In this document: positions 4,208 through 10,742 of the stretch, piece after piece
How positions within the stretch are numbered: position 1 is the stretch's first letter
Layout: each line of letters starts with the position of its first letter
From: Flavobacteriaceae bacterium
GTDB lineage: Bacteria > Bacteroidota > Bacteroidia > Flavobacteriales > Flavobacteriaceae
Direction of reading: 5' to 3'
Assembly: GCA_013003145.1 (NCBI GenBank)
Contig: JABDLH010000059.1
Coordinates: 1 to 14,536, forward strand
Length of the DNA stretch: 14,536 bases
Translations under genes and position numbers: made by a program
Notes under the pieces: model-generated
Database searches by the model: none
The model's input: only the letters and a program-made list of their open reading frames with translations
Told to the model about the DNA's origin: nothing

Positions 4208-4226
4208 ATTTAAATTAATTCTAAAT
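4208..4226 (+). promoter_or_regulatory. Candidate operator copy 1 (19-bp inverted repeat, Fur-like shape)
   Basis: ATTTA-N9-TAAAT; the two 9-nt halves around the central base match at 7 of 9 positions when one is reverse-complemented. It ends 4 nt before the -33 TTTG of the operon promoter. The 20 bases from 4208 agree with those from 4275 at 17 of 20 positions. The 9-1-9 architecture is that of Fur-family operators; the regulator is an inference. Confidence 0.55.
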
Positions 4227-4230
4227 AAAG

Positions 4231-4261
4231 TTTGAAGGTTTTTCTTCCTGCTATATATTTG
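4231..4261 (+). promoter_or_regulatory. Bacteroidota-type promoter of the DUF4856-imelysin-HTTM-TonB operon
   Basis: TTTG at 4231-4234 (-33) and TATATTTG at 4254-4261 (-7, TAnnTTTG) are separated by 19 bp, matching the Bacteroidota consensus in both boxes and spacing. Transcription should start around 4266-4268, giving a leader of about 35 nt. It is the best promoter in the window and lies between the two operator-like repeats. Confidence 0.82.
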
Positions 4262-4274
4262 CAGCTCGAACATT

Positions 4275-4293
4275 ATTTAAAATCAATCTAAAT
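4275..4293 (+). promoter_or_regulatory. Candidate operator copy 2 (19-bp inverted repeat, Fur-like shape)
   Basis: Second copy of the ATTTA-N9-TAAAT element, again with 7 of 9 half-site matches, lying between the predicted transcription start and the ATG at 4302. Its centre is 67 bp from that of copy 1, so a protein on both sites would bracket the promoter. Confidence 0.55.
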
Positions 4294-4301
4294 ATAAATA
4301 G

Positions 4302-5519
4302 ATGAAGAGAAATCTTTTTCCAGCCATACTTTTAGGTGGTATTCTACTGACCTCTTGCAGTAATGATGATGATAATAATCCAATTGATCAACAAGTTAAT
4401 GCTCCTGCTACTTATTCCTTTGAAAGGGGGGGTGAGTCAACCGTTGATTTTAACGGGCAGACCACTCGTTTGCTGATGGGGGGAGCACTATCAGGTGCCC
4501 TGACAGATCCTACAGAAACTGCTGCGTCCTTAAAGGCGATGTATGCCCATGAAGCCGGGGTTGAAAATTTTGAAAATCCCGATCTGAATACTTCCAATAA
4601 GAATTTAAAGTCCAAAACTGCAGCTTCGGCTGATTTTTATGCTTCCAACACTGCAGACCAGTTTGATGTCCGTGCAGATTTTGATACCTGGATAGATGCT
4701 CAGGCCTCCGAGGTTTTTCCAAGGTGGAATGCTGCGGCGTCTCCCGGGACTGCAGGACAGATCGCTGATGGATCATCCACTCGCTACGTCTCCGGACAAG
4801 GGCTGGAGTATAACCAGGTATTTGTAAAAGGATTGATCGGTGCAGTTATGACAGACCAGGCACTGAACAATTATCTAAGCACCACTGTATTGGACGAGGC
4901 CGGAAATATTACTGATAATGATGCAGGGATCACCGCCGAAGGAAAGAATTATACCAATATGGAGCACAAATGGGATGAGGCTTACGGATATGTATTCGGA
5001 CTGAATGCCGATCCTGCTAATCCTAATAATGATCTCGGGGCAGATAGTTTTCTGAATAAGTACCTGGGAAGAGTAGAGGGCGACAGCGATTTTGCCGGTA
5101 TTTCTGCAGATATTTTCGAGGCCTTTAAATTAGGAAGAGCAGCAATAGTTGCTGGTAATTACGAAGTGCGTGACGTCCAGGCTGAAATCATCCGTGAAAA
5201 AATATCCGAAATCGTAGGAATACGATCCGTGTATTATTTAATCCAGGCAAAAGCTATCCTGGAGCAACCACAACCGGCTTACGGAACCGTTTTCCATGAT
5301 CTTTCAGAGGCGTATGGCTTTATCTACAGCTTACAGTTTACACGTAAACCCGGGACTATGGAGCCGTATTTCAGCAGGACCGAAGTACAGGCCATGCTTG
5401 ATGATCTTATGGATGACGGTGCCAATGGTTTGTGGAATGTACAGCCACAGACCTTACAGGATATGGCAGAGAACATAGCTGCACGTTTTGATTTTACCGT
5501 AACCGAAGCAGGTAGCTGA
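4302..5519 (+). CDS. DUF4856-family lipoprotein
   Basis: First gene of the central operon, 405 residues. The N-terminus is a lipoprotein signal with lipobox 'LTSC' (Cys19), followed by Ser-Asn and a run of Asp; an acidic run right after the lipid-bearing Cys resembles the Bacteroidota signal that sends lipoproteins to the cell surface. The mature chain begins with the 'PATYSFERGG' stretch and is then mostly helical. I recognise it as DUF4856 from this start, 'EGKNYTNMEHKWDEAYGY' at about 213-230 and 'FHDLSEAYGFIYSL' near 331-344. The biochemical role of the family is, to my knowledge, not established. Two H-x3-E-A-Y-G motifs (His222/Glu226 and His332/Glu336) put His and Glu one helical turn apart twice, a plausible metal site. 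Its place before imelysin and a FecA-like receptor suggests a role in iron or metal uptake (inference). Confidence 0.85.
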   Translation: MKRNLFPAILLGGILLTSCSNDDDNNPIDQQVNAPATYSFERGGESTVDFNGQTTRLLMGGALSGALTDPTETAASLKAMYAHEAGVENFENPDLNTSNKNLKSKTAASADFYASNTADQFDVRADFDTWIDAQASEVFPRWNAAASPGTAGQIADGSSTRYVSGQGLEYNQVFVKGLIGAVMTDQALNNYLSTTVLDEAGNITDNDAGITAEGKNYTNMEHKWDEAYGYVFGLNADPANPNNDLGADSFLNKYLGRVEGDSDFAGISADIFEAFKLGRAAIVAGNYEVRDVQAEIIREKISEIVGIRSVYYLIQAKAILEQPQPAYGTVFHDLSEAYGFIYSLQFTRKPGTMEPYFSRTEVQAMLDDLMDDGANGLWNVQPQTLQDMAENIAARFDFTVTEAGS

Positions 5520-5560
5520 AATGATAGTTTTTGAGTTAGTTAGGTTTTTAAGTTGAAGAT

Positions 5561-5603
5561 GGGAAAAGGAACACTTGATTTTCTAAATGGGTGTTCCCTT
5601 CCC
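5561..5603 (+). other. Hairpin between the DUF4856 gene and imelysin gene
   Basis: Left arm 5561-5574 (gggaaaaggaacac) pairs with right arm 5591-5603 (gtgttcccttccc): 7 bp, a 2x1 internal loop, then 5 bp, around a 16-nt loop. No T-run follows, so it is a poor terminator. Its 3' arm touches the next -7 box at 5604, so it may set different mRNA levels for the genes on each side. Confidence 0.6.
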
Positions 5604-5611
5604 TATCTTTG
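5580..5611 (+). promoter_or_regulatory. Candidate secondary promoter for the imelysin gene
   Basis: TATCTTTG at 5604-5611 fits TAnnTTTG exactly. TTTC at 5580-5583 could serve as -33 (one mismatch, spacer 20). Transcription would start near 5616-5618, which leaves a leader of about 25 nt to the ATG at 5642. Confidence 0.5.
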
Positions 5612-5641
5612 CAAATCGAAAAAAATATGATACGTAGACCG

Positions 5642-6769
5642 ATGAAAAGAATTATACCGAGTTTAATCTTATTGGTGACCATCTGGGCATGCTCGTCTGA
5701 TTCTGCAGGAGAACCACAGGTAGATCCGCAACCGGAACCGGTGAGTTTTGAGCGAAGCGAGATGCTGGAAAACTGGGCTGATAATATAATCCTGCCATCG
5801 TACCAGGATTTCAGCACCAGGCTCAATACCATGAATACTATTTATATCGATTTTAAATCTAACCCTTCCGAGGAGCAATTACAGAAATTACGCGATGCCT
5901 GGTTAGATGCTTATTTAGGATGGCAGGCTGTAGCCATGTTCGAGATCGGCCCGGCCGAAACCGTTGGTTACCGGCTGGCTATGAATACTTACCCTACAGA
6001 CGCCAATACACTGGAGGAGTATCTCGCCTCTGGTTCCTATGACCTCAGTCTACCGGCTAATCGTGATGTTAAGGGATTCCCGGCACTGGATTACCTTATC
6101 AATGGCCTTGCTACATCGGATTCACAGATTGTTGCTCGATACCAGGGAGCTGACCAGCAAGCACACTTTGAATACATCGATGCGGTAATCCAAGACATGC
6201 TGTCGCTCACCACCCAAGTGATACAGGGATGGGAGGGAGGATTCCGCGATGCATTTGTCGCTAATGACGGTGCTTCAGCAACCGCATCTACAGACCGGAT
6301 GGTTAATGATTTTATCTTTTATTACGAGAAACATCTGCGTGCAGGAAAAATGGGAATTCCCCTGGGCGTATTTACCGGTTCAAAGGCGCCACAGACCCTG
6401 GAGGCTTATTACAGGACAACGGTAGGTAAAGAACTCTTCCTTGCTGCCACGGTAGCCGTGCAGGATTTCTTTAACGGGAAACACTACGGGAAATCAGCTT
6501 TCGGAAAAAGCCTTGCTTCTTACCTGCAGGACTTAAATACGCTTAAGGATGGGGCGGCGCTTGACGAGATCATCAATGAGCAACTAGACCTGGCGATGGA
6601 ACAGGTCAATGCCCTGGGCGATTTTCGTACAGAAATAGAAAATAACGACCCTCCCAGAGCCATGTTGCTGGCATATGATGAAGTACAGAGGGTAGTTCCC
6701 TTATTCAAGGTGGATATGGTTTCTGCCATGAGTATCAGTGTTGATTTTGTAGATGCTGACGGGGATTAA
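5642..6769 (+). CDS. Imelysin-family lipoprotein
   Basis: Imelysin-like proteins (family M75, no longer seen as clear peptidases) are helical periplasmic or surface proteins tied to bacterial iron uptake. From the ATG at 5642 the protein has 375 residues, a lipoprotein signal ending in 'IWAC' (Cys17), then a helical domain. Family landmarks are 'LRDAWLDAYLGWQAV', 'EIGPAETVGYRLAMNTYPTD', 'KHLRAGKMGIPLGVF' and the C-terminal 'ISVDFVDADGD' common in Bacteroidota imelysins. The classical GxHxxE motif is replaced by Gly145-Phe-Pro147-Ala-Leu-Asp150, so His and Glu are both lost. An ATG at 5627 would add five residues, but would leave only about 10 nt of leader after the local promoter. The stop is 3 nt before the next ATG. 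Unlike the DUF4856 protein, few acidic residues follow the lipid Cys, so it may stay periplasmic. Confidence 0.9.
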   Translation: MKRIIPSLILLVTIWACSSDSAGEPQVDPQPEPVSFERSEMLENWADNIILPSYQDFSTRLNTMNTIYIDFKSNPSEEQLQKLRDAWLDAYLGWQAVAMFEIGPAETVGYRLAMNTYPTDANTLEEYLASGSYDLSLPANRDVKGFPALDYLINGLATSDSQIVARYQGADQQAHFEYIDAVIQDMLSLTTQVIQGWEGGFRDAFVANDGASATASTDRMVNDFIFYYEKHLRAGKMGIPLGVFTGSKAPQTLEAYYRTTVGKELFLAATVAVQDFFNGKHYGKSAFGKSLASYLQDLNTLKDGAALDEIINEQLDLAMEQVNALGDFRTEIENNDPPRAMLLAYDEVQRVVPLFKVDMVSAMSISVDFVDADGD

Positions 6770-6772
6770 CCG

Positions 6773-8140
6773 ATGAAGGCAATCATCCGTACAAAACTGG
6801 AATCACCGCGTGAGGCTGCCCCACTGGCAGTCTTTCGCATTTTGTTCGGTTTCATGATGCTGTTTTCAATTATCCGGTTCTGGTATCACGGATGGATAGA
6901 ATCCCTTTACCTGGAACCTGATTTTCATTTTTCGTATTACGGTTTTGAATGGGTAAAACCCCTTGGGCCTTATACATACCTGATCTTCCTGCTGTGTGCA
7001 CTCTCTTCTGTAGGGATAGCCTTGGGCTATAAGTATCGTTGGTCCAGCATACTGTTTTTCCTGAGCTTTACCTACATAGAACTCGTGGATAAGACCACCT
7101 ACCTGAATCATTATTATTTTATCAGCGTACTGTCCCTGCTAATGATCTTTCTGCCCTTGCAGGCTTACTATTCTGTCGATGCCTGGAAAAAACCAGGCAA
7201 GGCATTCCAGCTGCTTCCTTCATGGCCTGTCCTTTCATTACGTCTCCTGCTGGGAATCGTTTATTTTTACGCTGGCCTGGCAAAACTCAACTCGGATTGG
7301 ATGCTGAAAGCCATGCCCTTGAAGATCTGGTTGCCATCTAAGTTTGATATTCCCATGATCGGCGGTCTCCTGGGCCAGGAATGGGTGCAATATGCTTTCT
7401 CCTGGACGGGTGCACTGTTTGACCTGGCAGTACCATTCCTGCTTTTATCTAAAAGAACTCGTGTACCGGCTTTTATTGTCTTGGTTATATTCCATGTGCT
7501 GACCCGGGTGCTCTTCCCTATCGGGATGTTTCCTTATATCATGATCGTATCCGCGCTCATCTTTTTTCCTGCTTCAGTACATCATAGATTTTTGGAGATC
7601 CTGTCCCGTCTGACAGGAATAATTAAGCAGCGTTTTGATAATGGTCGTAGATTGGTCTCTAATTATGGCTATGCTCATACATTTAAAATGACTTTCTTCG
7701 CACTTTTTTTTGGAGTGCAAATACTGTTCCCATGGCGATACCTGCTTTATCCCGGGGAGCTTTTCTGGACGGAGGAAGGTTATCGATTTTCTTGGAGGGT
7801 AATGTTGATGGAGAAATCGGGTTATGCGCAGTTCAAAGTGGTGGATGAAGACAGTGGGAAATGGGTTTACGTAGACAACTCAGAATTTCTTACTGCTTTC
7901 CAGGAAAAGCAAATGTCTTTTCAACCAGATTTTATCCTGGAATTCGCACATTTCCTGGAAGATCATTACCGTCAGCTGGGATGGGGAGACGTAGGTGTCT
8001 ACGTAGACAGCAGGGTCGCACTCAACGGAAGACTGAGTCGGCCGTTTATCGATCCAAGGGCAGACCTCACCCAATACGAGGATACATTTAAACCGAAAAC
8101 CTGGATATTACCTTTTCATGATACGATTAAAGGATTGTAG
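6773..8140 (+). CDS. HTTM / vitamin K-dependent gamma-carboxylase-like membrane protein
   Basis: A 455-residue inner-membrane protein with seven or eight hydrophobic segments in the first 320 residues and a soluble C-terminal domain. HTTM-family landmarks are 'LNHYYFISVLSLLMIFLP' (about 110-127), 'YFYAGLAKLNSDW' (about 165-177) and 'FHVLTRVLFPIGMFPY' (about 240-255). The C-terminal part has 'FSWRVMLMEKSGY', 'LNGRLSRPFIDPRADL' and matches the layout of human gamma-glutamyl carboxylase (GGCX), which turns protein Glu into gamma-carboxy-Glu using reduced vitamin K. Lys171 in 'AGLAKLNSDW' aligns with the GGCX catalytic base Lys218 in my reading, so activity is possible; flavobacteria make menaquinone (vitamin K2). 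The real substrate is unknown. The start is 3 nt after the imelysin stop, and the 3' end overlaps the TonB receptor start by 23 nt, so all are one operon. Confidence 0.9.
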   Translation: MKAIIRTKLESPREAAPLAVFRILFGFMMLFSIIRFWYHGWIESLYLEPDFHFSYYGFEWVKPLGPYTYLIFLLCALSSVGIALGYKYRWSSILFFLSFTYIELVDKTTYLNHYYFISVLSLLMIFLPLQAYYSVDAWKKPGKAFQLLPSWPVLSLRLLLGIVYFYAGLAKLNSDWMLKAMPLKIWLPSKFDIPMIGGLLGQEWVQYAFSWTGALFDLAVPFLLLSKRTRVPAFIVLVIFHVLTRVLFPIGMFPYIMIVSALIFFPASVHHRFLEILSRLTGIIKQRFDNGRRLVSNYGYAHTFKMTFFALFFGVQILFPWRYLLYPGELFWTEEGYRFSWRVMLMEKSGYAQFKVVDEDSGKWVYVDNSEFLTAFQEKQMSFQPDFILEFAHFLEDHYRQLGWGDVGVYVDSRVALNGRLSRPFIDPRADLTQYEDTFKPKTWILPFHDTIKGL

Positions 8141-10589
8141 TTTTATATGCATACTTATGCTGAGTATGTTCGGATTTGCACAGGGCAGCCTGCAAGGTGT
8201 TATCACAGGGCCGGACGGGAAACCAGTCCCCGGAGCCGAGGTTTTTTTAAGAAATTCAGAAGTCTTATCCGAAGCAGATGAAAACGGGAATTATAGCTTT
8301 AGTTCCCTTGCAGAAGGTACTTATAGTATGGTAGTCTTCGCCTTTGAGTTTAAGGTTTCGGAAATTCAAGTTATGGTTGATGGACCAACGATACAAAACG
8401 TACAGCTTGAACGGCTGAGTGAAGCACTGTCAGAAGTCGTATTGATACAGGAACGGCAACGGGTCTTTGCTCTAAAAAGTTTGAAGAAGGTAGAAGGTAC
8501 GGCCATCTACGCCGGGAAGAAAAGCGAAGTTGTGCTTATGGATCAATTGGTGGCTAACGTCGCAGCTAATAACCCGCGGCAGGTATACAGCCAGGTGGTA
8601 GGGCTCAATATATACGAAAATGGAGATGCCGGGCTGCAACTGAATATCGGGGGACGGGGATTGGATCCCAACCGGACTGCTAATTTCAATACCCGGCAGA
8701 ATGGATATGACATCAGTGCCGATGCCCTTGGGTACCCGGAAAGTTATTATACGCCACCGGCCGAGGCCCTGAGTGAAATACAGGTGGTACGCGGCGCTGC
8801 CTCCCTGCAATATGGGCCGCAATTTGGTGGTTTAGTAAATTTTAAATTCAAACGTCCGGTAACCGACAAAGCAATTGAATGGACCAGCAGGCAGACCGTC
8901 GGATCGTATAACCTCTTTACCAGTTTCAATAGTTTAAGTGGTACGGTAGACGATTTCAGCTACTATACCTATTTCAATTACAAAGAAGGCGATGGTTTCC
9001 GCCCGAACTCTGAATTCAACAGTCGGAATTATTTCGGATCCTTCAATCTGAAACTCAGTGAGGACACTCAACTTACATTTGAAGCTACCGTCCTGGATTA
9101 CCTGGCTAAGCAAGCCGGTGGACTTACGGATGCCCAGTTTGAAGAGGATCCTATCTTCAGTAACCGGGCACGTAACTGGTTCACCGTTGACTGGAAGCTT
9201 TTTTCCCTGCGACTGGACCACCGTTTAAACTCCCGCTCGGATATCAGTTTACAATTATTCACCCTGGAGGCCAATCGCTCTGCCCTTGGTTTCCGTACCA
9301 ACCGCGTATCCCAGCCCGATGACCCATCGGAACCTCGTGAACTCCTGGTCGATGATTTCCGGAATTGGGGAGCAGACTTTCGCTACCTGACCAGGTATAC
9401 TCTGGCGGGAAAGAATTCTGTACTCTTATTGGGTACAAAGTACTACCAGACCGACAATCGCCAGGAACAGGGACCCGGTAGTGCGGCTTCCAACCCGGAC
9501 TTCAATTTTTATACACAGGATTTTCCCAATTACGAGCGGCAATCTTCATTTGAGCTCCCGAATACCAACCTGGCGATATTCGGCGAGAATATCATCGATC
9601 TGAGCCCCAGCTTTTCAATCACTCCTGGTTTTCGTTGGGAATACATAAAGACTGAAAGTGAAGGAGCATACAGGAATATCGTACTGGACCTGGCCGGTAA
9701 TCCTCTTTTGAATGAAGAAGTCACGGATAACCGGACCTTTGAACGTAACTTCTTGCTCTTAGGGCTTGGTGCGGCATTAAAACTTGGTAAAAGCAGTGAA
9801 CTTTATGCAAATATCTCCCAGAATTACCGTTCGGTGACCTTTAGTGATATCAGGGTAGTGAATCCCTCATACCAGGTAGCTGAAGATATCCGGGATGAGG
9901 ATGGATTTACGGCTGATATAGGATTCCGGGGGAATTATAAACGAATTCTTTCCTTTGATCTCAGTGCCTTCAGCCTGCTCTATGATAACCGCCTGGGAGA
10001 GATCTTAAAAAATGAGACCCGTACCAATGCAAATGGCGATGTGGTTGAGACCGGCAGGGTGGTTCGCTTCCGGGGAAATATTGGAACGGCTTTTATGTAT
10101 GGACTGGAAAGCTTCCTGGACTGGAATTTAAAAAGAACATTTGTGCCCAATGCTGAGCGATTACGGGCCAACGTTTACCTGAACCTCGCCTTGACAGACT
10201 CGGAATACCTTGAATCTGAAGAAACCGGGGTAGAGGGGAACAGGGTAGAATTTATTCCGAAGATCAACATGAAGTCCGGCTTACAATTCGGGTATGGTAA
10301 CTTTCTTGGGAGTTTACAATACTCCTATTTGTCTGAACAATTTACCGATGCGACCAATGCGCCCAGGGATGTCAATGACAACCAGCGGGGGATAGAAGGT
10401 GCTATCCCGGCCTACGATATCATGGACCTCTCTTTGTCATACAGCTACCGTAAATGGAAATTGGAAGCAGGGGTCAATAATTTGATGGACAACACTTATT
10501 TTACCCGTAGGGCTACCGGCTATCCCGGACCGGGAATTATCCCTGCAGAGCCGCGAACATTTTACACAGGAATTCAATTCAAACTTTAA
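8118..10589 (+). CDS. FecA-like TonB-dependent receptor
   Basis: An outer-membrane receptor of 823 residues, most like ferric citrate/siderophore receptors. Order of parts: signal peptide (1-21, 'MFGFAQ'), a carboxypeptidase-D regulatory-like beta-sandwich (about 25-100, 'GVITGPDGKPVPGAEVFL'), the plug (about 130-250) and the 22-strand barrel to the end. The plug carries the FecA-type run 'LNIGGRGLDPNRT', then 'EIQVVRGAASLQYGPQFGG', where ferric dicitrate receptors have 'GIRGLNPRRS' and 'VVRGGAGVRYGPQ'. Late barrel motifs include 'AGVNNLMDNTYFTRRATGYPGPG' and 'EPRTFYTGIQFKL'. The ATG at 8118 lies inside the HTTM gene and gives the full signal peptide, which points to translational coupling. 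With the imelysin it supports iron import; the exact ligand is not known. Confidence 0.95.
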   Translation: MIRLKDCSFICILMLSMFGFAQGSLQGVITGPDGKPVPGAEVFLRNSEVLSEADENGNYSFSSLAEGTYSMVVFAFEFKVSEIQVMVDGPTIQNVQLERLSEALSEVVLIQERQRVFALKSLKKVEGTAIYAGKKSEVVLMDQLVANVAANNPRQVYSQVVGLNIYENGDAGLQLNIGGRGLDPNRTANFNTRQNGYDISADALGYPESYYTPPAEALSEIQVVRGAASLQYGPQFGGLVNFKFKRPVTDKAIEWTSRQTVGSYNLFTSFNSLSGTVDDFSYYTYFNYKEGDGFRPNSEFNSRNYFGSFNLKLSEDTQLTFEATVLDYLAKQAGGLTDAQFEEDPIFSNRARNWFTVDWKLFSLRLDHRLNSRSDISLQLFTLEANRSALGFRTNRVSQPDDPSEPRELLVDDFRNWGADFRYLTRYTLAGKNSVLLLGTKYYQTDNRQEQGPGSAASNPDFNFYTQDFPNYERQSSFELPNTNLAIFGENIIDLSPSFSITPGFRWEYIKTESEGAYRNIVLDLAGNPLLNEEVTDNRTFERNFLLLGLGAALKLGKSSELYANISQNYRSVTFSDIRVVNPSYQVAEDIRDEDGFTADIGFRGNYKRILSFDLSAFSLLYDNRLGEILKNETRTNANGDVVETGRVVRFRGNIGTAFMYGLESFLDWNLKRTFVPNAERLRANVYLNLALTDSEYLESEETGVEGNRVEFIPKINMKSGLQFGYGNFLGSLQYSYLSEQFTDATNAPRDVNDNQRGIEGAIPAYDIMDLSLSYSYRKWKLEAGVNNLMDNTYFTRRATGYPGPGIIPAEPRTFYTGIQFKL

Positions 10590-10616: not shown

Positions 10617-10692
10617 TTCCTGGGCCAAATACGTGCGTTCCACTTATAGTGCCCAATTGGCAGAATAACGGGTATTTTAAAATTATATGAAG

Positions 10693-10727
10693 GAGCACCT
10701 CCCGCGGAACGCAGGAGGTGTTCTTTT
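10693..10727 (+). terminator. Terminator of the central operon
   Basis: A 10-bp stem (gagcacctcc 10693-10702 with ggaggtgttc 10714-10723, one G-U pair), extendable by A-T pairs on the outside, an 11-nt loop, and a T-run from 10724. It ends the TonB receptor transcript, about 100 nt after the stop codon. It may also stop the convergent Cys-rich gene, though the A-run needed for that direction is weak. Confidence 0.88.
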
Positions 10728-10742
10728 ATTTAGATGGGTTTA

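Follow-up and report, generated by a model that had tools for sequence, protein, structure and literature searches.

To our knowledge, no clear role is known for the bacterial homologues of the clotting carboxylase. Here we analyzed one such homologue in a stretch of 14,536 nucleotides from a Flavobacteriaceae bacterium (assembly GCA_013003145.1, contig JABDLH010000059.1; the whole stretch is called the window below). It belongs to a set of four genes, which encode a DUF4856 lipoprotein, an imelysin lipoprotein, an HTTM protein homologous to the vitamin K-dependent gamma-carboxylase (VKGC) and a FecA-like TonB-dependent receptor. The set is conserved, probably switched by iron, and present in many marine Bacteroidota.

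Several described systems come close to it. Human carboxylase GGCX (PDB 9wfn, 9l20, 9bvk and others) shares with the window protein the HTTM and lumenal domains, the catalytic Lys, the Asn-His pair that binds Glu and the greater part of the vitamin K pocket. Unlike GGCX, the window VKGC lacks the Arch domain, part of the propeptide-binding domain and the cysteines of the C99-C450 disulfide, has Ala for K217 and Val for M401, is not associated with VKOR and lies in an iron-uptake genomic setting. The PA4370-PA4373-type operon (PMC3143127) consists of an imelysin, a DUF1111 di-haem oxidoreductase (DHOR) and an IPPA-type imelysin. It is likewise Fur-linked, with an IPPA-type imelysin and a redox enzyme among the imelysin genes. 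The set here differs in that VKGC replaces DHOR or stands beside it, a DUF4856 lipoprotein comes first and the TonB receptor is a dedicated one. No DHOR was found in the source genome (G000) or its congener G130. The EfeUOB/EfeUOM systems also use an M75 protein as a periplasmic or surface iron binder, but the imelysin here has GFPALD and no HxxE. EfeU permease and EfeB peroxidase were not among the four genes or the three scanned window neighbours; the search covered these genes and not the rest of the genome.

In R. anatipestifer, Table 4 of PMC5609570 lists RAYM_09779 (TonB receptor), RAYM_09784 (VKGC), RAYM_09789 (imelysin) and RAYM_09794 (hypothetical) under adjacent tags as putatively Fur-regulated. 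Their wild-type −Fe/+Fe values were 2.11, 2.64, 3.07 and 2.41, respectively, and we infer that the hypothetical protein is DUF4856. The three named genes thus resemble our set in adjacency and in being raised under low iron, but the available part of that paper does not handle them as one system and leaves the VKGC unexplained. Because this table lists adjacent genes raised by low iron, the gene set is not unseen. The original prediction for this window held that carboxylase-like enzymes are not known as a part of TonB import. This is right for mechanisms as far as they are known, but a VKGC had already been listed beside a TonB receptor and an imelysin in that low-iron table. Among the open-licence PMC papers compared, PMC5609570 alone combines a VKGC, an imelysin and a TonB receptor, all as rows of a table. 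We found no paper in the open-licence PMC literature with DUF4856, none with DUF4856 and imelysin, and none treating the gene set as a system. The terms 'carboxylase', 'vitamin K' and 'imelysin' were absent from the main texts of PMC7221216, PMC7976709, PMC5429918, PMC9331221 and PMC11183961. The F. psychrophilum transcriptome paper PMC9723704 was searched for 'carboxylase' and 'vitamin K' only, and neither was found. Bacteroidota imelysins are mentioned in PMC9478572 and PMC5561996, neither of which mentions carboxylase.

The four genes lie at the predicted coordinates in the order DUF4856-imelysin-HTTM-receptor, and Pfam matched each to its family. Fur-box-like sites were scanned with the R. 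anatipestifer consensus of PMC5609570; PMC7976709 gives a different Fur-box sequence for R. anatipestifer. The features are as follows.

4208-4226, no strand assigned: Fur-box-like palindrome 1, immediately 5′ of the −33 element, with 2-3 mismatches to the R. anatipestifer consensus
4231-4261, plus strand: promoter, presumably of the Bacteroidota type, with TTTG at 4231-4234, a 19-bp spacer and TATATTTG at 4254-4261 (from the sequence and a motif list)
4275-4293, no strand assigned: Fur-box-like palindrome 2, between promoter and first gene, with 3 mismatches on either strand
4302-5519, plus strand: DUF4856 lipoprotein gene, 405 amino acids, lipobox Cys19 (Pfam PF16148, 1.7e-146)
5555-5610, plus strand: hairpin in the gap between the DUF4856 and imelysin genes (−23.1 kcal/mol, z −4.36)
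5604-5611, plus strand: second promoter-like −7 element, TATCTTTG, before the imelysin gene (consensus match only)
5642-6769, plus strand: imelysin (IPPA-type M75) lipoprotein gene, with an Asp-Gly-Asp end (Pfam PF09375, Peptidase_M75, 2e-28, above the cut-off)
6773-8140, plus strand: HTTM/VKGC homologue gene (HTTM PF05090, 9.5e-81; VKGC_lumenal_dom PF22777, 6.2e-59)
8118-10589, plus strand: FecA-like TonB-dependent outer-membrane receptor gene, with a CarboxypepD_reg N-terminus and a Plug (PDB FecA 1pnz, 5e-20)
10687-10729, no strand assigned: terminator hairpin 3′ of the receptor gene (−27.8 kcal/mol, z −7.30), followed by a T-run

The spacings also agreed with the prediction: 71-122 bp before the imelysin gene, depending on its start codon, then 3 bp, then an overlap of 23 bp. 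In the alignment, the best imelysin start was ATG 5642, the start of most homologues, and Cys22 in its lipoprotein-type signal was kept in 36 of 36 rows. The source assembly is 68% complete and consists of 309 contigs. By VKGC, the nearest named relatives were Zeaxanthinibacter sp. PT1 (98% identity) and Muriicola jejuensis (83%), among the best 80 of at least 576 VKGC relatives; this limit holds for all the named-genome counts below.

Our survey covered 198 genomes of Bacteroidota species, of which 46 contained a total of 53 matches to the VKGC lumenal domain. The neighbourhoods of all 53 loci were read with four purpose-built hidden Markov models, one per family, which also catch diverged DUF4856 unseen by the Pfam search (e.g. 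L097, L100 and L103; L and G denote our loci and genomes). The full order DUF4856-imelysin-HTTM-receptor, on the same strand, was present at 38 of the 53 lumenal-type loci, and imelysin-HTTM-receptor at two others (L105, at a contig end, and L095, which is genuine). The remaining 13 loci had other settings. The system was carried by 40 of the 198 genomes, in G136 divided between two contigs. By the Pfam model, DUF4856 was found in 33 genomes, and in 31 of these a VKGC lay within a few kilobases; the other two (G109 and G128) have no lumenal-type VKGC at all. With the imelysin-subfamily profile, 39 matches scored above 336 and all of them stood beside VKGC in these operons, although scoring was limited to the 10 best candidates in most genomes.

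In named genomes, the complete four-gene order was observed at 68 of the 80 loci. Contig ends interrupt three of the remaining 12 (L126, L152 and L183), and at L194 a different gene precedes HTTM-receptor. The marine Zobellia galactanivorans likewise carries the genes, VKGC and DUF4856 among them. At two Roseivirga loci (L136 and L140), DUF4856-HTTM stands by itself, and these genomes have imelysin and receptor adjacent at another place. DUF4856 was not found in the whole genome for Flavobacterium L169 and L176, and lies on a separate contig in the genome of L181. Three Tenacibaculum loci (L180, L187 and L191) showed the order DUF4856-imelysin-325 amino acids-receptor-HTTM. Since the two collections overlap (e.g. 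L158/L067 and L181/L243), their counts were not summed. Across both, the four genes behave as one system, as predicted. Loose linkage of the HTTM gene, which the original prediction had named as the evidence that would speak against it, was not what we saw, because VKGC is a constant member of the set.

Some loci departed from this arrangement. In the three loci of Tenacibaculum dicentrarchi/finnmarkense, VKGC is shifted behind the receptor and the gene of 325 amino acids lies between imelysin and receptor; that of L180 (3427-4404), the only one scanned, belongs to the fatty-acid-hydroxylase family. At L116 (G128:C54), in a genome without lumenal-type VKGC, DUF4856 stands beside a TonB receptor; next come a membrane protein that looks polytopic and a flavin amine oxidase. 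The gene of 477 amino acids after DUF4856 in L116 was rejected as an HTTM candidate: it had no HTTM match, and its best match was a weak TMEM260-like one below the cut-off. At L093 (G108:C1), a VKGC of the operon group is found alone; this genome has no Pfam DUF4856 match and carries an imelysin-DHOR-imelysin operon elsewhere.

Iron acquisition is well supported as the role of the set. The two Fur-box-like sites flank the front promoter, and 0.01 matches would be expected in the whole window; as candidate sites, they place the set in a putative Fur regulon. We then took 111 loci with both DUF4856 and VKGC, not excluding near copies, and scanned 250 bp upstream of DUF4856 in each. The best site had at most 4 mismatches in 105 of 111 operons; among 491 control regions, which lie upstream of other genes at these loci, 23 reached this level. 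The best operon site beat its own 40 shuffles at 0.05 in 108 of 111 (the exceptions were L083, L135 and L153). The cargo might be another metal (calcium, copper or lanthanide), with the system merely co-regulated with iron genes. Gamma-carboxyglutamate (Gla) is a classical calcium binder. In addition, PMC9174327 describes an M75 protein, EfeM, that also binds Cu and Zn. However, both the sites before 105 of the operons and the low-iron response in R. anatipestifer (PMC5609570) point to iron, so that we regard another metal as very improbable. The same two lines of evidence bear out the predicted tie of the system to iron.

The HTTM protein has the two domains of the VKGC family in order, HTTM then lumenal, both with Pfam scores far above cut-off, and it aligned with residues 53 to 505 of the 758 of human GGCX (E 6e-38). 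In GGCX, K218 is the base; N159, H160 and Y395 hold the Glu; F286, F294, F299, H160, V210, M401 and W223 line the quinone ring; K217 couples substrate binding; and G259 is a tunnel residue (PMC12589487). By residue mapping, K171, N112 and H113 of the window protein correspond to K218, N159 and H160. Nine residues (K218, N159, H160, W223, G259, F286, F294, F299 and M402) were identical in 40 of 40 operon enzymes and in 80 of 80 named-genome enzymes, two sets that overlap. M401 is Val, N290 is Thr and N158 is Leu in each of the 40 operon enzymes. Judged by these residues, the operon VKGC is likely to be catalytically competent. A non-catalytic protein, which senses or binds quinone or helps lipoprotein assembly, would suit a system with no identified substrate and no VKOR partner. 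But binding alone would not demand that catalytic and pocket residues stay unchanged in both sets, across distant families, and we consider a non-catalytic role decidedly improbable. That the set serves iron-linked acquisition and includes a catalytically competent VKGC is a conclusion we hold with considerable confidence.

In the phylogenetic tree, the operon enzymes formed one supported group of 41, the solitary L093 included. GGCX was a long branch of unsure position. A second VKGC type, with 8 loci in the 198 genomes, formed a well-supported group of its own; it keeps K218, N159 and H160 and has His at Y395. One of the 8 is in the source genome, which thereby holds a second full VKGC homologue (G000:C19; L088, 1476-2816, minus strand). 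The second-type VKGC of L090 lies between the genes of FAD synthetase/riboflavin kinase and seryl-tRNA synthetase. At the other 7 second-type loci the upstream gene is of similar size, and in 5 of them so is the downstream gene.

Which proteins might the enzyme act on? The imelysin matched PDB 4ecg (8.6e-11), 3n8u (1.4e-7) and 3pf0 (1.7e-5), and its GFPALD motif at 150-155, His-less as in IPPA, assigns it to the IPPA type of M75. Imelysins without VKGC often adjoin DHOR. Among 20 loci around strong DHOR matches, an imelysin was adjacent in 16, one gene away in 2 and missing in 2 (L238 and L241). The order imelysin-DHOR-IPPA-type imelysin was found at L117, L118, L119 and L240, and DHOR and VKGC modules were neighbours at L072, L076, L169, L176, L181 and L245. 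It seems that DHOR pairs with IrpA-type and VKGC with IPPA-type imelysins, L250 being a hybrid. Such an exchange of DHOR and VKGC beside imelysins is expected if imelysins have dedicated oxidative partner enzymes. MbnH acts on MbnP in copper uptake. By analogy, the pattern fits oxidative enzymes (VKGC and DHOR) that serve imelysin-type proteins.

The hybrid L250 (G254:C184) is a run of imelysin-DHOR-imelysin-HTTM-receptor which joins the classical and the VKGC modules, and its VKGC keeps K218, N159 and H160. In the imelysins themselves, the Asp-Gly-Asp C-terminus (6758-6769 in the window) was present in 112 of 112 distinct VKGC-linked subfamily rows; the DHOR-linked IPPA-type rows also end so in 4 of 4, but they were picked by that ending. 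The Glu of the GxHxxE motif (residue 155 in the window imelysin) is Asp in 91% of the 112 rows, whereas all 4 IPPA-type rows linked to DHOR and all 32 IrpA-type rows retain Glu.

The other lipoprotein, DUF4856, was predicted to be mostly helical with a small strand pair (pLDDT 92.6), and comparison of this model gave no clear match to any solved fold. In 50 aligned rows, C19, K176, Y254, Y312 and E336 were invariant and H332 nearly so. These residues likely form a functional centre.

We propose that the set is a Fur-controlled system of outer-membrane iron acquisition. Fur would bind at the candidate sites, and under low iron both lipoproteins, the membrane enzyme and the receptor would be made. 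Together with TonB, the receptor would take up a ferric ligand, and at the outer membrane the two lipoproteins, imelysin and DUF4856, would bind iron or pass it on. The HTTM protein would be a true GGCX-type enzyme of the inner membrane with its active site facing the periplasm. Through Lys171 it would use menaquinol, O2 and CO2 to carboxylate one or more Glu in one newly exported lipoprotein, before transit to the outer membrane, and the carboxylated Glu would make a stronger metal site. This maturation of a partner iron-binding lipoprotein by a menaquinol-dependent periplasmic VKGC is put forward tentatively, at somewhat less than an even chance, because the exchange of enzymes beside imelysins fits it, but no imelysin Glu special to the VKGC-linked proteins was seen and VKOR does not go with the system.

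Several observations weigh against it. We compared the imelysins, and only these, setting the 112 distinct subfamily rows against three other groups: IPPA-type rows linked to DHOR (4), Tenacibaculum/hybrid rows (4) and IrpA-type rows (32). In the columns with 88% conservation or more across the 112, no Glu was conserved solely in VKGC-linked imelysins; E234 and E259 are also present in most DHOR-linked ones. A Glu signature of carboxylation in imelysins was therefore rejected. In DUF4856, E336 is retained at two loci without VKGC (L115 and L116), and three genomes that keep VKGC (G079, G397 and G398) had no DUF4856 match by the Pfam model, which misses diverged members. In the enzyme, all 40 operon sequences have Ala for K217 (named genomes: 78 Ala, 2 Thr), and Y395 of the Glu pocket is replaced by Phe in 9 of 40, the other 31 having Tyr (54 Tyr and 26 Phe in named genomes). 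The GGCX portion beyond residue about 505, including part of the propeptide-binding domain, is missing; the full propeptide-binding domain, the Arch domain and the K217 coupling of animal GGCX are absent here. VKOR was present in 7 of the 40 genomes with the operon and in 34 of the remaining 158, and was found neither in G000 (68% complete) nor in G130 (100% complete); VKOR as a partner in a vitamin K cycle was thus rejected. Concerning Fur, the same four R. anatipestifer genes still had −Fe/+Fe values of 2.70, 2.77, 2.92 and 3.07 after fur deletion, and the Fur-box table of PMC5609570 has no entry for RAYM_09779-09794. The hypothesis of a carboxylase in the original prediction is strengthened by the complete catalytic core, and lacks a VKGC-specific imelysin Glu, a VKOR companion and the GGCX part beyond about 505. 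A catalytic heart kept while much of the recognition part is lost fits substrates unlike the animal ones.

The substrate might even be a small molecule. In that case, VKGC would carboxylate or oxidise a chelator, a carboxylate ligand imported by the FecA-like receptor, or remove a carboxylate from it, and this would release or bind iron in the periplasm. The loss of the part beyond about 505 with retention of the Glu-type pocket and the lack of a VKGC-specific Glu in imelysin are consistent with this, as is the best solved relative of the receptor, the ferric-citrate receptor FecA. However, the closest NCBIfam models of the receptor, all siderophore/FecA, fell below cut-off, the FecA ferric-citrate equivalog NF041676 by far (100 bits against 1100). 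No fifth gene was kept across the loci as read by their layouts, in which neighbours were not identified one by one, and the partners are exported, like the proteins on which the VKGC family usually acts. We judge a small-molecule substrate unlikely.

The missing VKOR also bears on another explanation, in which the protein is a ferric reductase: menaquinol near K171 would give electrons to Fe(III) held by the lipoproteins, and Fe(II) would be passed on. Without VKOR, chemistry that yields quinone rather than epoxide is easier to sustain. Iron is the theme of the set, and all 40 enzymes match GGCX at six residues of the quinone pocket or tunnel. But the residues that grip the Glu side chain in GGCX, N159 and H160, are invariant too, and Pfam detected neither a haem nor a metal domain in the VKGC protein. 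We know of no GGCX relative that is a metal reductase, and a reductase seems to us rather improbable.

The original prediction assumed one strong promoter at the front and a single terminator. The terminator was borne out by the strong hairpin at 10687-10729. The front promoter was also found, between the two Fur-box-like sites, but the hairpin at 5555-5610, which overlaps the TATCTTTG element, and this second promoter-like site precede the imelysin gene, and a single transcript from one promoter is therefore doubtful. The first lipoprotein, DUF4856, may be made in excess. By eye, without folding of the repeats, the near relatives L070 and L122 keep both the inverted repeat and TATCTTTG. Also by eye, the same gap in L064 and L125 holds a promoter-like TACTTTTG element, half of a Fur-box-like site and a repeat that resembles a terminator and has a T-run. 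The bare TANNTTTG motif was found 12 times in the window against 10.6 expected by chance, which is no excess. It occurred within 140 bp before DUF4856 in 79 of 109 loci and in the gap to imelysin in 41 of 109; alone, this motif is weak evidence of a promoter.

Taken as a whole, the set is a variety of the imelysin-type iron-uptake operon with possibly new chemistry. More broadly, bacteria might perform menaquinone-dependent protein gamma-carboxylation to build iron sites on surface lipoproteins, an older use than animal clotting, and imelysin-type lipoproteins might be matured by exchangeable oxidative enzymes (VKGC, DHOR and perhaps the fatty-acid-hydroxylase type of Tenacibaculum); we think this wider scheme somewhat unlikely. 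In this set, iron-uptake proteins are paired with a bacterial homologue of the vitamin K enzyme by which humans activate clotting factors. A tight genomic home, Fur-box-like sites, an intact catalytic core and candidate substrates next door place the bacterial VKGC in iron uptake. The gene set makes the question of bacterial Gla, and of its purpose, directly testable.

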